This document shows positions 443-10,877 of a DNA stretch of 49,765 nt, in pieces. This DNA comes from Spirochaetes bacterium GWB1_36_13 (GTDB lineage Bacteria; Spirochaetota; GWB1-36-13): contig MIAO01000144.1 of assembly GCA_001829155.1 (NCBI GenBank), positions 1 through 49,765 of the forward strand, read 5' to 3'. The position numbers were made by a program, and so were the translations under genes. The notes below the pieces were generated by a model. That model ran no database searches, was not told the origin of the DNA, and worked only from the letters and a program-made list of their open reading frames with translations. How positions within the stretch are numbered: position 1 is the first letter of the stretch; every line of letters begins with the position of its first letter.

Positions 443-528
443 AATTCAAAAATAAATATATAAAAAAATTTATAATAAGCAAAAAAATATTGACTCAACC
501 CTGAAAGCAGGCTAGGCGGGAAAATTTC

Positions 529-666
529 AGATAATGTTCCCGCGATATGTGATGCTCCTGAGGCTTAGAAGGGTGCAGTCTGAGGGTCGTGAGCAGAGCG
601 AACCCCCGAAGCAAACCCTGTCCCGTCAGGGCTTGCCGATGGAGTATCATATATCGTGTGTTATGT
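529..666 (-). other. attC-like recombination site 6 (distal end of cassette 5)
   Basis: Long imperfect arms at 543-558 and 641-656 pair at 14 of 16 positions (CGATATGTGATGCTCC against GGAGTATCATATATCG). They are bracketed by TGTTATG on the gene side and AGATAAT on the distal side. The loop of about 80 bases is GC-rich (it contains GAGCAGAGCGAACCCCCG), unlike the AT-rich genes around it. The overall plan (outer core, asymmetric spacer, stem, variable loop) is that of integron attC sites. Beyond it, from about 484 to 516, lies the upstream region of the recombinase remnant. Confidence 0.6.
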
Positions 667-2649
667 GAAGGATTTAGTTTTTAATTACTTGCTGTGTAGT
701 CTTAAAGTTTAGTTTCGCAATTTTAGTTAACTCTCCTTCTCCATTTTTTTCTATAATAGATTTTGTAACTTTTATTACCGTTTCATTTGCTCCTTTTGGA
801 ATAGTAATTCCATATTTTATTCCCATAGCTTCGATAGATGTTAAAAACCCTTCTCTTGCTAAAATAGATGCAGCTGCTACTGCAATATCTCTTTCAGCTT
901 TGTGAATTTGCAGTAACTCTATTTTTTTCCCATTTTCCATTAATGCCTTATTTATATATTCTTCATTTCCAAATTGGTCTGCAATTGCAGCTGTACAATC
1001 ATTTTTTATTAATAAGTTTTCGATTGCTCGTGCATGCCCCCATGCTAATAATTCGTTCATATTTTTCATTTTGTCGTATAACTCATTGTATTTTTCTGGA
1101 TTTATTTTAATAACACTATATTTATCTTCTCCTACAAGTCTCCTGATTTCTGGAGCCATTTCTTTAATTTTGCTATCACTTATTGTTTTACTATCTTTAA
1201 CGCCCAATGATTTTAATTTCTCGTTTGTTTCTTTATCAACATATACTCCAGCAATTACAATTGCTCCTAAGTAGTCACCTTTTCCAGATTCGTCAGTTCC
1301 AATATGTGATTCTTTTGTAAAACTTAGAAATTTTTCTTCTTTTTCTTTATTGATTTGATTAGAGTCTTTTTCTACATTTTGCACTACTAATAAATCTTTT
1401 TCTTCACTTTTATATGTTTCATCTTTTTTTGTTTGACAAATATCTTCATCCGTTAACCCCGCTCTTATCAAAATATTGTAGGCATCTCTCATACAAGCTT
1501 TTATTTCACCAACTTTATCAAATGCTTCCTCAGGATTTTGAATACAAATTATTCTTCTATCTCCTAATGGGTCAGAATGCATTTCTTTACATCTACTTCC
1601 TTCCCAAATTGCTATCATTTTTTCTAGAACATATCCATATCGTCTTTCATCTGTAATATATTTTTTAAATTTTAGTTTTCTCAATGCATTTCCTACATCG
1701 GCAATTTCAGGATTTTTCTTGTAATCTTCAATAGTGAAAAAGTCTTTTTCTATCATTATTTTTATTATAAATCCTTCATATACTTTGGCAAACTGTGCAA
1801 CTAAAAAATTATATTCATCCAATTTTTCACTTACTTTCTTAATAATTTCTACTAACGCTAATCCTGTTGAATATGTCTTCTTATCATTTTCAAACAAGTA
1901 ATCCTCAAATCCCTCTGGAAAATTTTTAACTCTTTCGTTCATCTTCAATAACATTTCTGAGTTTTCTTTAATTTCTTTCTCAATTTTATTTTTTTCTTTT
2001 GCAGAAACATAAAAAAGTGCTCTTTCCATATCATCCAAAGGCTTATAAGCATTTATTATTTCAGCAACTTTATCTATTAAGTCAGAATAAATTCCTTGAA
2101 CCACTAAATTTCCACTTTTATACAATGTAACAACACAAGAAAAGTCATAATAAGTTATTTTATATATAAATTCCTGATGTTCATGTTTTTCCAACTTCTC
2201 AATTTGAAAAGTATTTTCTATTGATTCTTTAATTATTTTTTGAATTTCAGTGTCTTGAATTTTGATTGATGCACTAACAGGAATTCTATTTTCAACTCCA
2301 TCAGGTTTTATTACTTTTAACTCTAAATTACTACAAAATATATTTTCAAAATCTTGTGTAGCCTTTTCAATTATAATTTTAGAAGAATTCTTACCTTTAA
2401 AATATATTATGATTGAAGCAAATTCTTTGGAATGTTCTATATTCAATTTATATCCACAACCGTTATTTATTTCTTTTTCTTCTATCACTTTTGCCCCAAT
2501 CTGACTTATTTTCTCTTTGACTATCATTATAGAATCTTCTTTTTGTTTTACAAATTCAATGCTTTTCATCGTTCCCCTCTCTTTATAAAACTATTTTTAT
2601 TTTATAATATTTAGAATATAATTTCTTCGTTTTGAATCTTTCACCTAAC
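536..2649 (-). mobile_element. Gene cassette 5 (HEPN-RNase HIII fusion), attC-like site included
   Basis: This unit runs from the core at 2643-2649 (GTTAGGT on the minus strand, a perfect GTTRRRY) to the next core at 529-535. The gene region is flanked by cassette-specific inverted repeats: 660-676 matches the reverse complement of 2633-2649 (GTTATGTGAAGGATT against GTTAGGTGAAAGATT). The unit is about 2.1 kb and holds one gene. Cassette identity is inferred from the repeated site architecture, not from known mobility. Confidence 0.6.
674..2569 (-). CDS. RnlA-like HEPN toxin fused to an RNase HIII catalytic domain
   Basis: A 631-residue protein. Residues 1-175 look like two TBP/RnlA-type repeat domains; the second contains an SGNLVVQG strand typical of both RnlA and RNase HIII N-termini. 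Residues 215-370 resemble the Dmd-binding/HEPN part of RnlA, with the HEPN motif R-x4-H at R326-H331 (RCKEMH). After a charged linker (375-420), residues 422-631 form an RNase H type 2 domain: DESGKGD at 426-432, D531 and E559 (HKAERD), which would complete the D-E-D-E metal site. Ordinary RNase HIII is about 300 residues, so the first 370 residues are additional. Known for the family: RnlA/LsoA are anti-T4 toxins stimulated by host RNase HI. Inference: this fusion carries its own RNase H partner. No RnlB-like antitoxin gene is adjacent. GAGGGG precedes the ATG. The call as an RNase H2-type enzyme is firm; the RnlA similarity is from recall. Confidence 0.78.
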   Translation of the reverse strand: MKSIEFVKQKEDSIMIVKEKISQIGAKVIEEKEINNGCGYKLNIEHSKEFASIIIYFKGKNSSKIIIEKATQDFENIFCSNLELKVIKPDGVENRIPVSASIKIQDTEIQKIIKESIENTFQIEKLEKHEHQEFIYKITYYDFSCVVTLYKSGNLVVQGIYSDLIDKVAEIINAYKPLDDMERALFYVSAKEKNKIEKEIKENSEMLLKMNERVKNFPEGFEDYLFENDKKTYSTGLALVEIIKKVSEKLDEYNFLVAQFAKVYEGFIIKIMIEKDFFTIEDYKKNPEIADVGNALRKLKFKKYITDERRYGYVLEKMIAIWEGSRCKEMHSDPLGDRRIICIQNPEEAFDKVGEIKACMRDAYNILIRAGLTDEDICQTKKDETYKSEEKDLLVVQNVEKDSNQINKEKEEKFLSFTKESHIGTDESGKGDYLGAIVIAGVYVDKETNEKLKSLGVKDSKTISDSKIKEMAPEIRRLVGEDKYSVIKINPEKYNELYDKMKNMNELLAWGHARAIENLLIKNDCTAAIADQFGNEEYINKALMENGKKIELLQIHKAERDIAVAAASILAREGFLTSIEAMGIKYGITIPKGANETVIKVTKSIIEKNGEGELTKIAKLNFKTTQQVIKN

Positions 2650-2802
2650 ATTTGCGACTATAAGACCGAGTAGGGTTTGCCATGAGCAAACCCGTAAGCG
2701 AGGCAAGGGAACGAAGTAACCGCAGCGTTCGGCTGAAAGCCGAATGTCGGGCGAAGCCCTGGAGGGCAGCTTGACTGCCCAGAGTGATAGTCGCTGTTGT
2801 GT
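2643..2802 (-). other. attC-like recombination site 5 (between cassettes 5 and 4)
   Basis: Perfect arms GCGACTAT (2654-2661) and ATAGTCGC (2787-2794) enclose a long, GC-rich loop with internal hairpins, for example GTTCGGCTGAAAGCCGAATG near 2728. Cores at 2643-2649 and about 2796-2802 flank it. A 62-codon minus-strand reading frame crosses the site, but its composition is explained by the folded site and it is not called as a gene. Confidence 0.58.
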
Positions 2803-4597: not shown

Positions 4598-5674
4598 TTA
4601 TTTATTTTTGTTTTGGTTTTCTAAATATTCTAAATATTTAATTATTTTTTTATATTCGATTAGTTGCATATATTCTTCCATGTAGTGATAATCTGGATTT
4701 TCATTCTCATTAATAGGTAATATTATACTCTCTTTTTCCAATCTTGTAGAACTTCTTTTATAGCCAAAATTGTATTTACCCCTTACTTTATCAGCAACAG
4801 TAGTTATAAAAGTTCCACTATATCTATTAATATTTGGACTGTATCCTAAGGTCATATCCGAAGTTGCAATAAAATCCTCAGCTTTATAAACTGAGTATCC
4901 CATAGAACCTTCTCCATTTCTTATAAATGCAATACAATTACCTTTCTGAATTAACTTATTATCTTTATTTACTTGGCACAAAACCCCATTATTTTGATTA
5001 GTTGCACCTAAATAATTAATTCCTTTTTTAGATTTGTTTAAATGATTCAAACCTTTAGATTTACCTGGTACTAACCTTTCAAAGAGTTTACCTATTTTAA
5101 ATTCTTTCCATTCTTTTTGTGATAAAAATTTCAGATTATTTGAATAATTAATACCTTCTATTTTAGACAATATATACTTCTTGTATTTTTCAATCAGAAG
5201 TTGCTCCTTATCTTGCATAAAAGATTCCATAAATTCATAGTCGGGTTTACCATTTAGATTTACAGGTAAAAGTATTTTTTCTTTTTTGATTCGATTATCG
5301 TTGATTTCACGGTTATAGCTATATTTTTCATCTAAACGCGAAACTATATTCGCAATAAATAGATAAATATATTTATTAAAATTAGGATTTTCCAATTTAG
5401 TAACATGATCACTAGCAATAAACCTATAAGGTTGGTAAAAACAAGCTCCGACACTTCCACTATTCGCAATAGATAAACAATTAGAAAAAATTCTCACATC
5501 AGATGTATTGCTTATAAAGTTATCAACTCCATTATTCAAGGCAGTTGAAGAAATATAAGGCATTTTTCCTAAAAAATGGTCATTAGTTTTAAGTCGCTTC
5601 CCTCTTTGGATATTAGGAAAAACCTCATTAATGAAAAATTCTTGCCATTTTAAACCGTTCAATCTGTTTTTCAT
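4598..5674 (-). CDS. DNA-sequence specificity subunit (HsdS/BcgIB-like)
   Basis: A 358-residue protein with two tandem target-recognition halves. Each opens with the same kind of segment: LKWQEFFINEVFPNIQRGKR near residue 9 and WKEFKIGKLFERLVPGKSKG near residue 188. Each half also contains a Y-I/L-x-x-T/S core (PYISSTALNNGVDNF and NYLGATNQNNGV). This duplicated layout, with helical spacers after each half, is typical of type I S subunits and of the B subunit of BcgI-type enzymes (about 340 residues). It begins two bases after the methylase/nuclease gene, so the two are translationally linked. It should set the recognition site of the pair; the site cannot be read from sequence. Confidence 0.85.
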   Translation of the reverse strand: MKNRLNGLKWQEFFINEVFPNIQRGKRLKTNDHFLGKMPYISSTALNNGVDNFISNTSDVRIFSNCLSIANSGSVGACFYQPYRFIASDHVTKLENPNFNKYIYLFIANIVSRLDEKYSYNREINDNRIKKEKILLPVNLNGKPDYEFMESFMQDKEQLLIEKYKKYILSKIEGINYSNNLKFLSQKEWKEFKIGKLFERLVPGKSKGLNHLNKSKKGINYLGATNQNNGVLCQVNKDNKLIQKGNCIAFIRNGEGSMGYSVYKAEDFIATSDMTLGYSPNINRYSGTFITTVADKVRGKYNFGYKRSSTRLEKESIILPINENENPDYHYMEEYMQLIEYKKIIKYLEYLENQNKNK

Positions 5675-5676
5675 AA

Positions 5677-7569
5677 TTATTCGTCCAACCCAAACAAATA
5701 ACCTTTGCCATGAGTTACCATATTAAACTCAAAAGTCAGGTAATCCGCCATAGTGTTTTCAAAATCCTCATCACATGGGATTTCATCATTAAAATAATAA
5801 AAAGAATGCAACCATTCATCTTCTGGCTCTATAATTGTTTTAACCATAAACCTACTTTCAGCAGGTGCATCATGTCTCCAACAAGATATTAAGCGAGCTT
5901 TTTTTTCTTTTGCTCTTTCTGTTTCTATAAGACCAATATGTTTATTAACAACAAATCCATCATCTTCAAAATTAATAAATTTACAATACTTTTCTTTTGG
6001 GTGGGGCTTGTGTGCTGTAAAAATAGCTATACATGTATTTGTACCTATCCCATAAAAAGTATTTTTATTAAGAGTTATAACACCTTCTAATGAGTGTTTT
6101 TCTAATATATTTTTTTTCACAAGTTTATCTTCATTGGTTTTCCCAACCATAGTTGATTGAGGAACAATCACTGCACATTTTGCGCCATCTGATAAAGAAT
6201 CTAATAAATGCTTGACAAAAGATATTTCAGTCAAATGCGCATTTTCTTTTACTTTTCCTTGAGAATAAGGAGGATTCATTAAACCAATTGTAAACTTATT
6301 TTTTTTAAATTCTTCAGCAGACCTATTTAAAAAATCATCACAAACAAGGTTACTTTTTCCATCTCCTCTTAAAATCATATTTGTAGTAGCAATTGAAAAC
6401 ATATCTTCTCTTACTTCTATACCAAATATTTGATCTTTTTTTATTTTATTTCTGTCTTTTGGTTCGGCTTTTTTTAACATATAGTGCATAGCTGCAATTA
6501 AAAAACTTCCTGTTCCACAACATGGGTCAAAAACAATATCAGAAGGTTGAATATCCAATAATTCACAAAACAATTCAGTAATATGTTTTGGAGTAAGTAC
6601 CACACCTAAAGTTTGACCATCGCCACCACTATACCTAATAAATTCACCATAAAATCGACCTAAAACATCTTCTGGAGTATTTGCAATGACAGATTTTAAA
6701 ATGTTATTTTTTAAGTATTCTGTAAAATATTTTAAAGGAGTCTTTTCTAATCGAGTATCTATGCGATTTAACAAAGTCCTGTCTTTTATTGTGGTGAATT
6801 GATTTAAAATTTTATCTTTTTTTGTTTCAGGTTGAACTTCTACCCTAGTCATATATGTGGAAAGTGCGTCAAATATTTTTTGCCCGTCTGTTTTTAAAGA
6901 ATCACCAATCAAGGAATCAATAGTAAATGAATTATCTTGTAACGCTAATAAAATAGCGGAAACAATAAGAGGTTTTTCTGAATCACCTAATTGGCCATAA
7001 TTTCTGAGATATTCATTAAGTTCTTTAGATTTGCTTAGAATATCTTCCAGTTCAAGAGCTTCAGCAGGTGTTTCTTTTAAAACTTGTTCTTTGTAATATT
7101 TTTCTATGTTTTCTTCAGAAAAATTTTCAAAGTTTTCAACATTTTGAAGAATCTTATACCCATTTTCATCAACATAAATAGGTTTAATTTTATGGTGTTT
7201 TTCATTTCCAGAACAACCAAAAGCAAATATTTTTTTAAAATTAGTTTTTGTAAAAATTTCTTGTGCATAATGGAGAGCTCCATTTTCAGCATAATCAGAA
7301 ATAGATTTATTATCCATTAATAATGTAAAGCCATCATCATTATCATAAATAGCTTGTTTATTTAAATCAGCTTTATCCTCAATAACAATAATAAAATCTT
7401 TTGATTTACCAACAAATTCAGGAAATCCACTTTTACCAGTTCCTTTTTTTGAAGCTGTTTTAAGGGCATCTTGTATTTCTTTTATATCGCTCCCATTTGG
7501 TGTAAATTTTATTTTTGCATTATTTAATAAATTTCCTATAAAAAAATCAGTCTTTCTTTCATTCGCCAT
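5677..7569 (-). CDS. BcgI-like fused nuclease/N6-adenine DNA methyltransferase
   Basis: A 630-residue protein. The N-terminus holds a candidate PD-(D/E)xK nuclease motif, P50-E51-F with E64-D65-K66 (KDFIIVIEDKAD), as in BcgI-type type IIB enzymes. The middle and C-terminal parts form an HsdM-like gamma-class methylase: FDPCCGTGSFLIAA (motif I, SAM binding) and NPPYSQ (motif IV, catalysis), preceded by GVVLTPKHI. Size and gene order match BcgI A (about 637 residues) followed by its specificity subunit. A separate type I R subunit is absent, so cleavage would have to come from the N-terminal domain. The start at 7569 is chosen because GGGG lies six bases upstream; the ATG 18 bases earlier lacks an RBS. 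If active, it would cut on both sides of its site. Confidence 0.82.
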   Translation of the reverse strand: MANERKTDFFIGNLLNNAKIKFTPNGSDIKEIQDALKTASKKGTGKSGFPEFVGKSKDFIIVIEDKADLNKQAIYDNDDGFTLLMDNKSISDYAENGALHYAQEIFTKTNFKKIFAFGCSGNEKHHKIKPIYVDENGYKILQNVENFENFSEENIEKYYKEQVLKETPAEALELEDILSKSKELNEYLRNYGQLGDSEKPLIVSAILLALQDNSFTIDSLIGDSLKTDGQKIFDALSTYMTRVEVQPETKKDKILNQFTTIKDRTLLNRIDTRLEKTPLKYFTEYLKNNILKSVIANTPEDVLGRFYGEFIRYSGGDGQTLGVVLTPKHITELFCELLDIQPSDIVFDPCCGTGSFLIAAMHYMLKKAEPKDRNKIKKDQIFGIEVREDMFSIATTNMILRGDGKSNLVCDDFLNRSAEEFKKNKFTIGLMNPPYSQGKVKENAHLTEISFVKHLLDSLSDGAKCAVIVPQSTMVGKTNEDKLVKKNILEKHSLEGVITLNKNTFYGIGTNTCIAIFTAHKPHPKEKYCKFINFEDDGFVVNKHIGLIETERAKEKKARLISCWRHDAPAESRFMVKTIIEPEDEWLHSFYYFNDEIPCDEDFENTMADYLTFEFNMVTHGKGYLFGLDE

Positions 7570-7658
7570 CTTATTCCCCAATTCCATAGTTTATGAATAA
7601 TTAGTAAGTCATTAAAATTTATAGTTTTTCTTCCCAAAAGTCATCTTTTATCTTTCTT

Positions 7659-7678: not shown

Positions 7679-7710
7679 CTTAATATACAAAACTCTGGCA
7701 CGGCATTTCA

Positions 7711-7915: not shown

Positions 7916-9079
7916 TTATTTTAATTTATATTCTAAAATATTTTGTTGTTTCCCGAACATAAAATCATTTAAATATTTGTAATAAAAAGAATATAATGGA
8001 GGCATATCATTAGTTTTCCATTCAACCTCAATATATGGTGTATCATCAGGAAGTATTCTAGGTAAATAATTTGAAATGTGAATAAACCCCTTGCCTTGAA
8101 AACCTTTATCAACTAAAGAAGCACCAAAAGGTATAAAGTGACTATATTCATAAATATTCAAGGTTATATTTGACTTCTGATTTAATGATTCATACCATTT
8201 TTTAATACTATCAATAGATAATGATTTTTCTTTTAAATTTAATTTTCCTACTTTAACCCCAAAAAATTCTTCTATTTGTTTTGATATTTCATCTTTGGCA
8301 TAATAAATATTTATTTTAATTTTTCTATGTTCATTAATATCAATTTGATTCAATATACTTGGTAAAGAAGGATGATAGATTCCAATAAATTCTAATTCTG
8401 CACTATGTTTTACTCGTTCAAGAAATTTTTCATCTAAATTCTTTTTTTTGGGGTAATCATTTGAATAAATATTAGTAAAATATTTTGTTAAAATCTTCGT
8501 ATTTTTACCATAATCTTTATTTTTATTACTTAAAATGATATTATAAACATTGTGTTCAAAACTATGTTTATCAATAACGGTATCTTCATCTATTAAAGTA
8601 AAAGACCAATCATCATTAATTTTAATTTTTCCACCTAAAGAGTCATTTTTTTTTCTTAAAAATTTATTATAGAAAGTTTTACTAACAATAATACCACCAT
8701 CATCAGCACCTGTAAGTATTCTTGCTGCATCATTTATTGTATTACCTATAATATTATTTTTTCGATTAATATCTTTAAGAACATTTACATCACCTACGTG
8801 AATTGCACACCTTATATCACAATCATTACTAATTGTCCAATCTATTATGCCAACAACTAATTCAAAAGATTTTAAATATGAAGAAGTCTTTATATTCTCA
8901 ATACCAGCAATAATCCCATCTCCCGTAGGAATTAAAATACAATCATTGTCAAGTATTTCATCATATAATAAATGATGAATCTCTTTCTGAAATCTTTTAA
9001 ATAAATCAATTTGTATTGGTTCATTATTTTTTGAATAACCAACTAAATCTAGATAAACAATTATATAAGATTTTGGCAT
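7916..9079 (-). CDS. Class III nucleotidyl cyclase with a C-terminal extension (Pycsar-like candidate)
   Basis: A protein of 387 residues from the ATG at 9079, which has GGAG seven bases upstream. A TTG 12 bases further upstream opens the same frame but would overlap the RBS; counted from it, the metal-binding Asp residues are D15 (YLDLVGYSK) and D58 (IPTGDG), and the transition-state pair is N120/R124 (IGNTINDAARI). All are intact, so the cyclase domain (about the first 175 residues) looks active. The C-terminal 190 residues have alternating strands and helices (KIKINIYYAKDEI, IYEYSHFIPFGASLVDKG) and match no domain I can name firmly; a sensor is possible. Short cyclases that open this way occur in Pycsar anti-phage systems making cCMP or cUMP, but the base specificity cannot be read here. 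It is co-transcribed downstream of a TIR-like gene. Confidence 0.78.
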   Translation of the reverse strand: MPKSYIIVYLDLVGYSKNNEPIQIDLFKRFQKEIHHLLYDEILDNDCILIPTGDGIIAGIENIKTSSYLKSFELVVGIIDWTISNDCDIRCAIHVGDVNVLKDINRKNNIIGNTINDAARILTGADDGGIIVSKTFYNKFLRKKNDSLGGKIKINDDWSFTLIDEDTVIDKHSFEHNVYNIILSNKNKDYGKNTKILTKYFTNIYSNDYPKKKNLDEKFLERVKHSAELEFIGIYHPSLPSILNQIDINEHRKIKINIYYAKDEISKQIEEFFGVKVGKLNLKEKSLSIDSIKKWYESLNQKSNITLNIYEYSHFIPFGASLVDKGFQGKGFIHISNYLPRILPDDTPYIEVEWKTNDMPPLYSFYYKYLNDFMFGKQQNILEYKLK

Positions 9080-9096
9080 GATTTTCTCCAAGATAA

Positions 9097-9660
9097 TTAA
9101 TGTGTTATATTACAATTCTTACATTTACTATTATACCTCATCATATCCTGTGGATTAACAATAAATTGGTTTCTTGACGATCTTGCTTTATAAGCATCAT
9201 CAATCCAATCTCCTAATTGTTGAGGCGAATTTGGATATATATAATATCTTGCATAACAATCATTTAATTCTTTATTCCAATTTGATTCAAATCGAGGGGG
9301 TAAATATGCGCTATTTCCTTGGTTAGGTAATATTATCCCAATTAAACCATTGGGTATATAATTTATACCTTGTCTTAATGAACTTTTAATCTCCCAATCA
9401 ACATATCTTCGACTATGTGTACAACTTCCAATTAAGACAATAGTAACAGTAGTATCTTGTAAATAATCATTTCTTATTTTATTCATAACATAATCAGTAT
9501 TACTGCTATCAATAAAATCATCATTATCATTAGCACCTAATACAAAAGGTGTAAAAACGTTTTCTTGATTTGCAAAATAATCAATAAAACTATCAACTTC
9601 AACATTATCTCCTTTATAAAAAGAAATGAATACCTTTCTTTTAATACCATTATATGACAT
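9097..9660 (-). CDS. TIR-like protein of the DUF1863/ThsB type
   Basis: A 187-residue protein opening KRKVFISFYKGDNVEVDSF, followed by DFIDSSNTDYVMNKIRNDYL, TVTIVLIGSCTHSRRYVDWE and GLIGIILP. This order of motifs is that of the DUF1863 (MTH538) TIR-like family, which includes the ThsB sensor of Thoeris. E90 in VDWEI is the candidate catalytic Glu. The C-terminal tail ends in a possible metal-binding CKNCNITH. GGAGG lies just upstream of the ATG. No ThsA (SIR2/SLOG effector) is adjacent; the partner is a nucleotidyl cyclase 17 bases downstream. Inference: either the TIR protein is an effector responding to the cyclase product, as TIR proteins do in Pycsar, or the pair is a new arrangement. No cyclic-nucleotide-binding domain is visible in it. 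Confidence 0.82.
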   Translation of the reverse strand: MSYNGIKRKVFISFYKGDNVEVDSFIDYFANQENVFTPFVLGANDNDDFIDSSNTDYVMNKIRNDYLQDTTVTIVLIGSCTHSRRYVDWEIKSSLRQGINYIPNGLIGIILPNQGNSAYLPPRFESNWNKELNDCYARYYIYPNSPQQLGDWIDDAYKARSSRNQFIVNPQDMMRYNSKCKNCNITH

Positions 9661-9808: not shown

Positions 9809-10834
9809 TTATAAATCATCTATGGGGCTTCTTATATTTTTTAGTATTTTTGTGCTGACATGGGTATAAATCTCAGTTGTTTTGCTGGATTCATGACCCA
9901 ATAGTTCCTGTATTATTCTTAAATCAGTTCCGTTTTCCAGTAAATGCGTGGCAAAGCTATGTCTGAGGGAATGAATTCCTGCTTCTTTCTTTAAGCCGGA
10001 TTCTTTTATAGCATTTTCAAAAACTTTCTGTAATGAACGGGATGTAATTTTCTTTTCATTCCTCTGACCTTCAAAAAGCCAGAATTTAGGGTGATACGCA
10101 TGAAGGTATTCGTTTATATCTCTTGATACTTTATCAGACAAAAGAGTAGTTCTGTCCTTCTTCCCTTTTGCCCCTTTTATGATAAGGATTTTTCTCTCAA
10201 AATCTATATCCTGTATTCTTAAACTCACTGTTTCACTCACACGCAGACCCGCTGAATAAGTGATGGAAAGCATGAGTTTATGCTTGAGATTTTTAACGGA
10301 ATCAATCAGCCTTTTGACCTCTTCTTTACTCAGTACGACAGGTAGTTTTTTTTCTTTTTTAGCCCGTTTGATCTGATAAATAAAATTCTTGCCGAGAATA
10401 CTGCCATAATAAAACCTCAGAGCATTCATGGCACAGTTAAGAGTTGAAGCCGTTGCTTCTTTTTTATCGGCTAGGTAATCCAGATAATTTTTAATATCTG
10501 TTTGATTAATAAAATCGGGGGTTTTACCTGTAAAGGTCAATAGTTCTTTGTTATAAAATGTATATGATTTACTTGTTCTTAAACTATAGCCACGGATACG
10601 GGTTTCTTGAGCAATGGAATCTTTTAGTGGGACTAATTCGGATCCGAAAGAGACTTTAAAATGTTTTTCAAGGTAGTCTCTATTAGAGAGATTATCAGGA
10701 ATAATCCATATTTTTTTGTCAGAAACCCATTTTCTGCCGGATATTTTACGGATGAGTTCAATCAAAGAGGGATTGTATTCAATACTAACTTCAAGCATTC
10801 CGTTATTCTTTTTTATTTCCAATATTCTCTCCAC
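9809..10834 (-). CDS. Tyrosine recombinase of a reverse integron-like array (XerC/D-like)
   Basis: A 341-residue protein with the full catalytic set: R198 (SAGLRVSE), the beta-hairpin Lys in GAKGKKDR (about 222-228), H288 and R291 (HSLRHSFATHL), H314 (LLGHESS) and Y323 (TEIYTHVS). Residues 1-60 are an extra N-terminal domain ending in a KWVSDKKIWIIP segment; the core-binding domain spans about 75-155. Between the Lys hairpin and H288 it reads WLFEGQRNEKKITSRSLQKV, without the RHH-containing insert that defines IntI, so by sequence it is Xer-like. The start is a GTG at 10834; the overlapping ATG is out of frame. It points the same way as the cassettes, with its 3' end next to the att site, so its transcript may read into the array. 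A deletion remnant of a close copy lies at 291-442. Confidence 0.88.
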   Translation of the reverse strand: MERILEIKKNNGMLEVSIEYNPSLIELIRKISGRKWVSDKKIWIIPDNLSNRDYLEKHFKVSFGSELVPLKDSIAQETRIRGYSLRTSKSYTFYNKELLTFTGKTPDFINQTDIKNYLDYLADKKEATASTLNCAMNALRFYYGSILGKNFIYQIKRAKKEKKLPVVLSKEEVKRLIDSVKNLKHKLMLSITYSAGLRVSETVSLRIQDIDFERKILIIKGAKGKKDRTTLLSDKVSRDINEYLHAYHPKFWLFEGQRNEKKITSRSLQKVFENAIKESGLKKEAGIHSLRHSFATHLLENGTDLRIIQELLGHESSKTTEIYTHVSTKILKNIRSPIDDL

Positions 10835-10848
10835 ATTTCCAAATTAAA

Positions 10849-10877
10849 AATATAACCAAAATCGATAGAGCAATCAA
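10849..10877 (-). promoter_or_regulatory. Candidate sigma-70-type promoter of the recombinase gene
   Basis: On the minus strand TTGATT (10872-10877) and TATATT (10849-10854) are separated by exactly 17 bases. Transcription would begin about 8 bases before the GTG start, leaving a very short leader with GGA close to the start. This is a consensus match only. If real, the promoter would also feed the cassettes downstream. Confidence 0.42.

Follow-up and report, generated by a model that had tools for sequence, protein, structure and literature searches.

RnlA and LsoA of E. coli, the RNase LS toxins, belong to the type II toxin-antitoxin pairs RnlAB and LsoAB. The NRD of E. coli RnlA binds both RNase HI and RnlB, and RNase HI stimulates RnlA and recruits RnlB; the reason why RnlA depends on RNase HI as both activator and recruiter of its antitoxin is unexplained (PMC5308261). 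Fusions of the RNase LS HEPN domain to RNase HI (viroplasmin plus RNase HI) or to TBP-like domains were reported by Anantharaman et al. (2013, PMC3710099), and in the accessible part of that article RNase HIII is mentioned solely for its TBP-like domain. The TOTE systems (TPR, OB, TBP, Effector; Aravind, Iyer and Burroughs, 2022) combine TPR-CSD, TBP and an effector, often with RNase H, as outlined in a later paper (PMC12458937).

We analysed a stretch of 49,765 bases (the window), consisting of one entire contig of a 3.04 Mb source genome with a completeness of 93%. One of its genes probably encodes, as judged from the sequence, an anti-phage protein joining two RNA-cutting enzymes.

Domain architecture of the 631-residue protein

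The open reading frame from 2569 to 674 was intact on the minus strand, and the plus strand was full of stops over the same interval, confirming the frame given in the preliminary description, where the strand was not stated. The features of the gene are the following.

674..2569, minus: whole gene, 631 aa, RNase HIII enclosing an NRD-HEPN module of RnlA type (ORF, models, Foldseek)
2574..2580, minus: likely ribosome-binding site AGAGGGG, 4 nt upstream of the ATG (sequence)
2285..2569, minus: residues 1-95, RNase HIII-type N-domain, TBP-like (HMM, E-H-EEEE-H fold in the AlphaFold2 model)
2036..2284, minus: residues 96-178, a second domain of TBP-like type, corresponding to the RnlA NRD (A7/A8 alignments, AlphaFold2 model, Foldseek to the NRD-HEPN of 7aex)
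1454..2035, minus: residues 179-372, HEPN domain (RnlA DBD; Foldseek with residues 1-400)
1775..1777, minus: E265, at the aligned position of a conserved E in E. coli RnlA
1577..1594, minus: HEPN motif R326-C-K-E-M-H331
1310..1453, minus: residues 373-420, linker of low confidence (pLDDT < 50 at 386-412)
683..1309, minus: residues 421-629, RNase HIII catalytic domain (models, fold, conservation)
1294-1289, 979-977 and 895-893, minus: catalytic acids D426/E427, D531 and E559, respectively

The NCBIfam model rnhC (TIGR00716) matched residues 404-628 with an E-value of 5e-64, scoring 216 bits where the cut-off is 161. The complete RNase H type 2 active site proposed earlier was borne out, as D426, E427, D531 and E559 were all present and each of them was invariant in the 93 RNase HIII domains compared (93/93). 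Solved RNase HIII structures were matched by sequence and also by fold, using Foldseek with the whole-chain model (3asm, E 1.7e-14; 4py5, 3.5e-12). The first 95 residues matched an HMM built from the N-domains of clostridial RNase HIII (E 3.4e-14) and returned zero matches with an HMM of the RnlA N-domain (NTD). In solved RNase H3, an N-domain of this type is the hybrid-binding domain.

The RnlA-type part was assigned by structure comparison. AlphaFold2 was run on an alignment of the window and locus sequences, and the resulting models had a mean pLDDT of 78.5 for the whole chain and 82.7 for residues 1-400, with the domain folds mostly confident; residues 332-340, directly following H331, showed low model confidence. 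The pTM values of 0.44 and 0.53, respectively, leave the domain arrangement uncertain, which probably accounts for the low TM-scores of the model to RnlA (0.3-0.4). When residues 1-400 were compared with the PDB by Foldseek, the ten best matches were all RnlA or LsoA (RnlA 6y2p_A, E 6.8e-11, and 4i8o, 5.9e-9; LsoA 5hy3, 1.8e-5), and the whole-chain model matched RNase HIII and RnlA alike. A weak match between a two-row sequence profile and E. coli RnlA was superseded by this comparison. A first alignment of 28 rows (A5), in which the HEPN part of the split members was misaligned, was left out of folding.

Among the aligned members, including E. coli RnlA, E265 and R326 were invariant (20/20 each) and H331 was retained in 18 of 20, which argues that R-x4-H is not a chance motif. 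The two exceptions were myxobacterial fused proteins with R in place of H; since these relatives lack the HEPN histidine, some members of the family may have a HEPN part without catalytic function. The Pfam RnlA models gave no match with the window protein itself, whose HEPN part was not recognised directly. A homologue in genome G121, of the same phylum (26% identity, E 2.5e-10), matched PF19034, over its cut-off in the genome search, and PF15935; both models also matched the protein at locus L113, and all four RnlA/RNase LS Pfam models matched that at L076. The RnlA identity of the window protein thus derives from intermediate homologues and fold, not from a Pfam match of its own. Altogether, alignment and modelling support residues 96-372 as the NRD and HEPN part of RNase LS (RnlA/LsoA). 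The preliminary description had assigned an RnlA-like layout to residues 1-370 and an R-x4-H motif at R326/H331, proposing a fold comparison and a look at homologues; the motif and the fold of residues 96-372 agreed with it, and residues 1-95, with their RNase HIII-type N-domain, did not.

Relatives, nested layout and partner genes

Scanning genome and viral collections with one sequence as the query returned zero relatives. They surfaced once the RNase HIII parts, aligned in two rows, served as the query in 84,980 species genomes, and two sampled phylum searches followed. The large scan yielded full-length fused proteins in Clostridiales (L045, 48%), Eubacteriales (L046) and archaea (L047 and L048), and the phylum searches added a further fused protein (L150) and two split pairs (L153 and L154). 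The fusion, for which the preliminary description had proposed a search, therefore recurs in at least five other genomes, and an assembly artefact as its origin was ruled out. RnlA and RNase HIII genes were split and adjacent in L065, L092, L099, L106, L113, L120, L153 and L154; the hosts of the two-gene versions were ANME-2 and Methanosarcinaceae archaea, Dehalococcoidia, Spirochaetia, Bacillota and a bacterium labelled Deltaproteobacteria. The RnlA identity and the fusion to RNase HIII are thus supported by predicted structure, by conservation and by independent fused or adjacent pairs.

Viral contigs carried only stand-alone RNase HIII with no adjoining toxin, and scans of viral sequences with the RnlA part were empty. 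Plasmid and phage matches of the full protein covered the RNase HIII part only, with no RnlA-like neighbour in the two records inspected. Genome G326 (L003) was rejected as a relative, being a stand-alone RNase HIII.

Close RnlA/RNase HIII pairs occurred in a spirochaete, one ANME-2 archaeon, a MAG of Dehalococcoidia and a further genome from the archaeal phylum (L092, L099, L106 and L154); their sequences suggest recent transfer between domains of life, and a MAG binning error is also possible. In two Myxococcota fused proteins (L050:3-2456 and L085:3-3032) the N-terminus carried a long extension and the HEPN motif was degenerate (RCLENR and RCLETR), possibly a dead HEPN domain accompanied by a live RNase HIII.

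The first 95 residues of the fused proteins were compared with N-domain profiles of both kinds, RNase HIII and RnlA. The clostridial RNase HIII profile matched L045 (7.8e-17) and L046 (3e-13) as it did the window protein, and none of the three matched the RnlA profile; the first 95 residues of L047 matched other RNase HIII N-domains (1.4e-14). L048 (8e-9) and L150 (2.5e-6) matched the RnlA N-domain, with no match or a marginal one to the RNase HIII profile. Since the N-terminal residues of the window protein are of RNase HIII type and not of RnlA type, profiles and model place the toxin module (NRD and HEPN) inside RNase HIII. Two layouts are thus distinguished by sequence, one with the module inserted into RNase HIII, as in the window, and one with a whole RnlA ahead of the catalytic domain. 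The two layouts tentatively suggest repeated fusion; the RNase HIII tree was poorly supported and too weak for counting such events.

A gene of about 430 aa encoding TPR repeats and a C-terminal cold-shock/S1-like domain (TPR/CSD) directly adjoined in nine loci, directly downstream in L045, L046, L092, L099, L106, L113, L150 and L153 and inside the operon in L076. The PADLOC model PDLC01170 (TPR fused to a cold-shock domain) matched the gene of L099 over its entire length. By sequence, this gene puts most loci in or near the TOTE conflict systems. In Cytobacillus oceanisediminis (L076:3815-7592) the gene order was RNase HIII, TPR/CSD, RnlA and RnlB; this RnlB (model E 1e-24, 30% identity to E. 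coli RnlB) was the only one among the RNase HIII-paired relatives examined.

No TPR/CSD gene was found near L047, L048, L065 or L120, and the source genome contained no full-length homologue, only short generic TPR matches. Neither RnlB nor any other antitoxin-like gene adjoined in the window, and the RnlB model had no match in the whole source genome, at its 93% completeness. Partner genes were lacking in the window copy and in a few archaeal, Bacillota and myxobacterial copies. The absence of an adjacent antitoxin was therefore correctly described earlier, and the RnlB-like neighbour to be sought in other genomes exists in L076; the idea of a self-contained toxin controlled from within stays a conjecture, as most relatives have an adjoining TPR/CSD gene and one has RnlB, so that partners are the rule.

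In L051:1413-3752, L052, L053:2309-4651, L054:2318-4645 and L058:2369-4648, from Nitrospirota, a Deltaproteobacterium and an Acidobacterium, a Lon-type S16 protease domain shares one chain with RNase HIII and two TBP-like domains; PF05362 matched in the case of L051, and the others were alignable. A TPR and cold-shock-domain gene directly followed L051, L053 and L054; L058 was followed by a TPR gene in which the CSD was not seen, and L052 was cut at the contig end. We tentatively propose that RNase HIII with TBP-like domains and a TPR/CSD protein might form a reusable hybrid-sensing core with swappable effectors, either a HEPN RNase (RnlA) or a Lon-type S16 protease (L051-L054, L058), the window protein being a one-gene, nested form.

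Genomic context and proposed function

From 10.8 kb to base 1 every likely gene of the window lies on the minus strand, in the order XerA/integron-type recombinase, ThsB-like TIR protein, cyclase with weak PycC similarity, type IIG restriction enzyme and specificity subunit, GNAT acetyltransferase, small membrane protein, the 631-aa gene and a cut ORF. Three further features were located in this region.

9809..10834, minus: XerA/integron-type tyrosine recombinase (NF040815, above cut-off)
2643..2802, minus: attC-like site preceding the gene, with R'' ACACAAC and R' GTTAGGT (hairpin)
525..666, minus: attC-like site after the gene, with ACATAAC and ending GGAACATTATCTGAAAT, nearly as at 7705 (hairpin)

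The recombinase reached 226.8 bits with TIGR02249 (IntI), below the cut-off of 265, and no curated model, Rfam included, credibly matched the attC-like sites. On sequence grounds the array is seemingly integron-like and defence-rich, with attC-like hairpins flanking the gene and a recombinase scoring under the IntI cut-off. Next to the 631-aa gene, at 293-468, lies a second recombinase copy that is truncated so that the start of the gene meets its end; it is 89% identical to 10806-10860 and 76% to 9814-9930. The type IIG restriction enzyme-methyltransferase (PADLOC E 8.5e-179) and its separate specificity subunit occupy 4598-7587. At 7916-9660 the weakly PycC-like nucleotide cyclase gene lies directly beside the gene of the ThsB-like TIR protein, and the two may form a divergent Pycsar-like pair.

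Sequence comparison and modelling established the domain identities, the intact catalytic residues in both nucleases and the recurrence of fusion or adjacency elsewhere. The reading that we favour, with moderate confidence, is that of a two-nuclease conflict protein in which an RnlA-type NRD and HEPN domain are built into RNase HIII, coupling hybrid sensing to mRNA cutting; the type IIG enzyme with its specificity subunit, the ThsB-like TIR protein and the PycC-like cyclase were counted in its favour as defence-like neighbours. The TBP-like N-domain and the RNase H domain would bind RNA:DNA hybrids and would dock in cis on the NRD, where RNase HI docks in trans on E. coli RnlA, thereby restraining the HEPN domain. 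Upon phage infection, hybrids might accumulate or partners be lost, allowing two HEPN domains to pair and cut mRNA; the trigger would be phage replication or transcription intermediates, and the outcome phage restriction, either direct or by abortive infection. In most relatives the TPR/CSD protein, and in one also RnlB, probably contribute to control; the window copy would have lost these partners or never had them, and its control may lie in cis or come from elsewhere in the genome.

It is possible, though we consider it doubtful, that the gene belongs to a reduced TOTE-type system, whose working unit needs the TPR/CSD partner, so that the window copy would be incomplete or its partner encoded elsewhere. 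The nine relatives with the adjoining gene, the end-to-end PADLOC match and the composition of TOTE systems argue for this reading, whereas the source genome has no full-length homologue of the partner and four relatives likewise lack it nearby. A repair or R-loop enzyme, in which RNase HIII does the work and HEPN serves only for binding or dimerisation, appears improbable: the invariant RNase HIII residues and the degenerate HEPN motif of two relatives would suit it, but the HEPN R and H are retained in nearly all members and the gene is located in a seemingly mobile, defence-rich array. Moreover, the source genome has one further gene of the RNase H kind, a separate RNase HII, so that housekeeping need not explain the 631-aa gene, and few genomes of the phylum sample have a clear RNase HIII (3 of 393 above the curated cut-off, 9 at E <= 4e-40). 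An ordinary type II toxin with its antitoxin, RnlB or another, in unassembled sequence is very improbable, since, even though the contig stops at base 1 and L076 carries RnlB, the attC-like sites on both sides delimit a single-gene unit, the nearly complete genome has no RnlB match and no other RNase HIII-paired relative examined has one.

The favoured reading, hybrid sensing coupled to messenger RNA destruction, is suggested by the gene architecture. The RnlA-RNase H partnership appears rebuilt with another RNase H class, in topologically different fusions and in adjacent genes, in bacteria and archaea, and this recurrence argues that RnlA-type immunity has an RNase H partner at its core. The single-chain form and the four-gene operon (RNase HIII, TPR/CSD, RnlA, RnlB) offer tractable material for studying hybrid-sensing control of a HEPN toxin.

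Comparison with known systems

The window protein shares with bacterial RNase HIII (Bst-RNase HIII, 2d0a; T. ammonificans RNase H3, 4py5) the TBP-like N-domain and the DEDE catalytic domain, and differs from it by about 280 extra residues, the NRD and HEPN, inserted between the two. With E. coli RnlA and LsoA it has in common the NRD-like TBP domain followed by HEPN, with the same fold and with E265, R326 and H331 in the same places, as well as the tie to an RNase H, which in E. coli RnlA is functional (PMC5308261). Unlike these toxins, it has an RNase HIII-type N-domain, its RNase H is of type 2 (HIII) and covalently joined, and RnlB is not nearby.

The RNase LS-RNase HI fusions (PMC3710099) also carry a HEPN RNase and an RNase H in one chain. 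Our locus L151 is of this kind, a single viroplasmin-RNase HI-NRD-HEPN chain followed by RnlB, and in L152 RNase HI, RnlA and RnlB are separate genes; set against the RNase HIII pairs, these two loci indicate that RnlA pairs with two different RNase H classes. In the RNase HI fusions, however, a type 1 RNase H is N-terminal and, in L151, RnlB lies downstream, whereas in the window RNase HIII wraps the module.

In relatives of the window protein, as in TOTE systems, a TPR-OB/CSD gene and an effector accompany the TBP-like domains and RNase H; the window copy has the TBP-like domain and the effector nuclease, but the TPR-OB/CSD gene is not adjacent. We found no literature report of an RnlA-RNase HIII pair, and with the TOTE description known to us through a citing paper, priority is uncertain. 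While the fusion of RnlA with RNase HI was already known, the pairing with RNase HIII, the nested layout and the link to a TPR/CSD gene look new.
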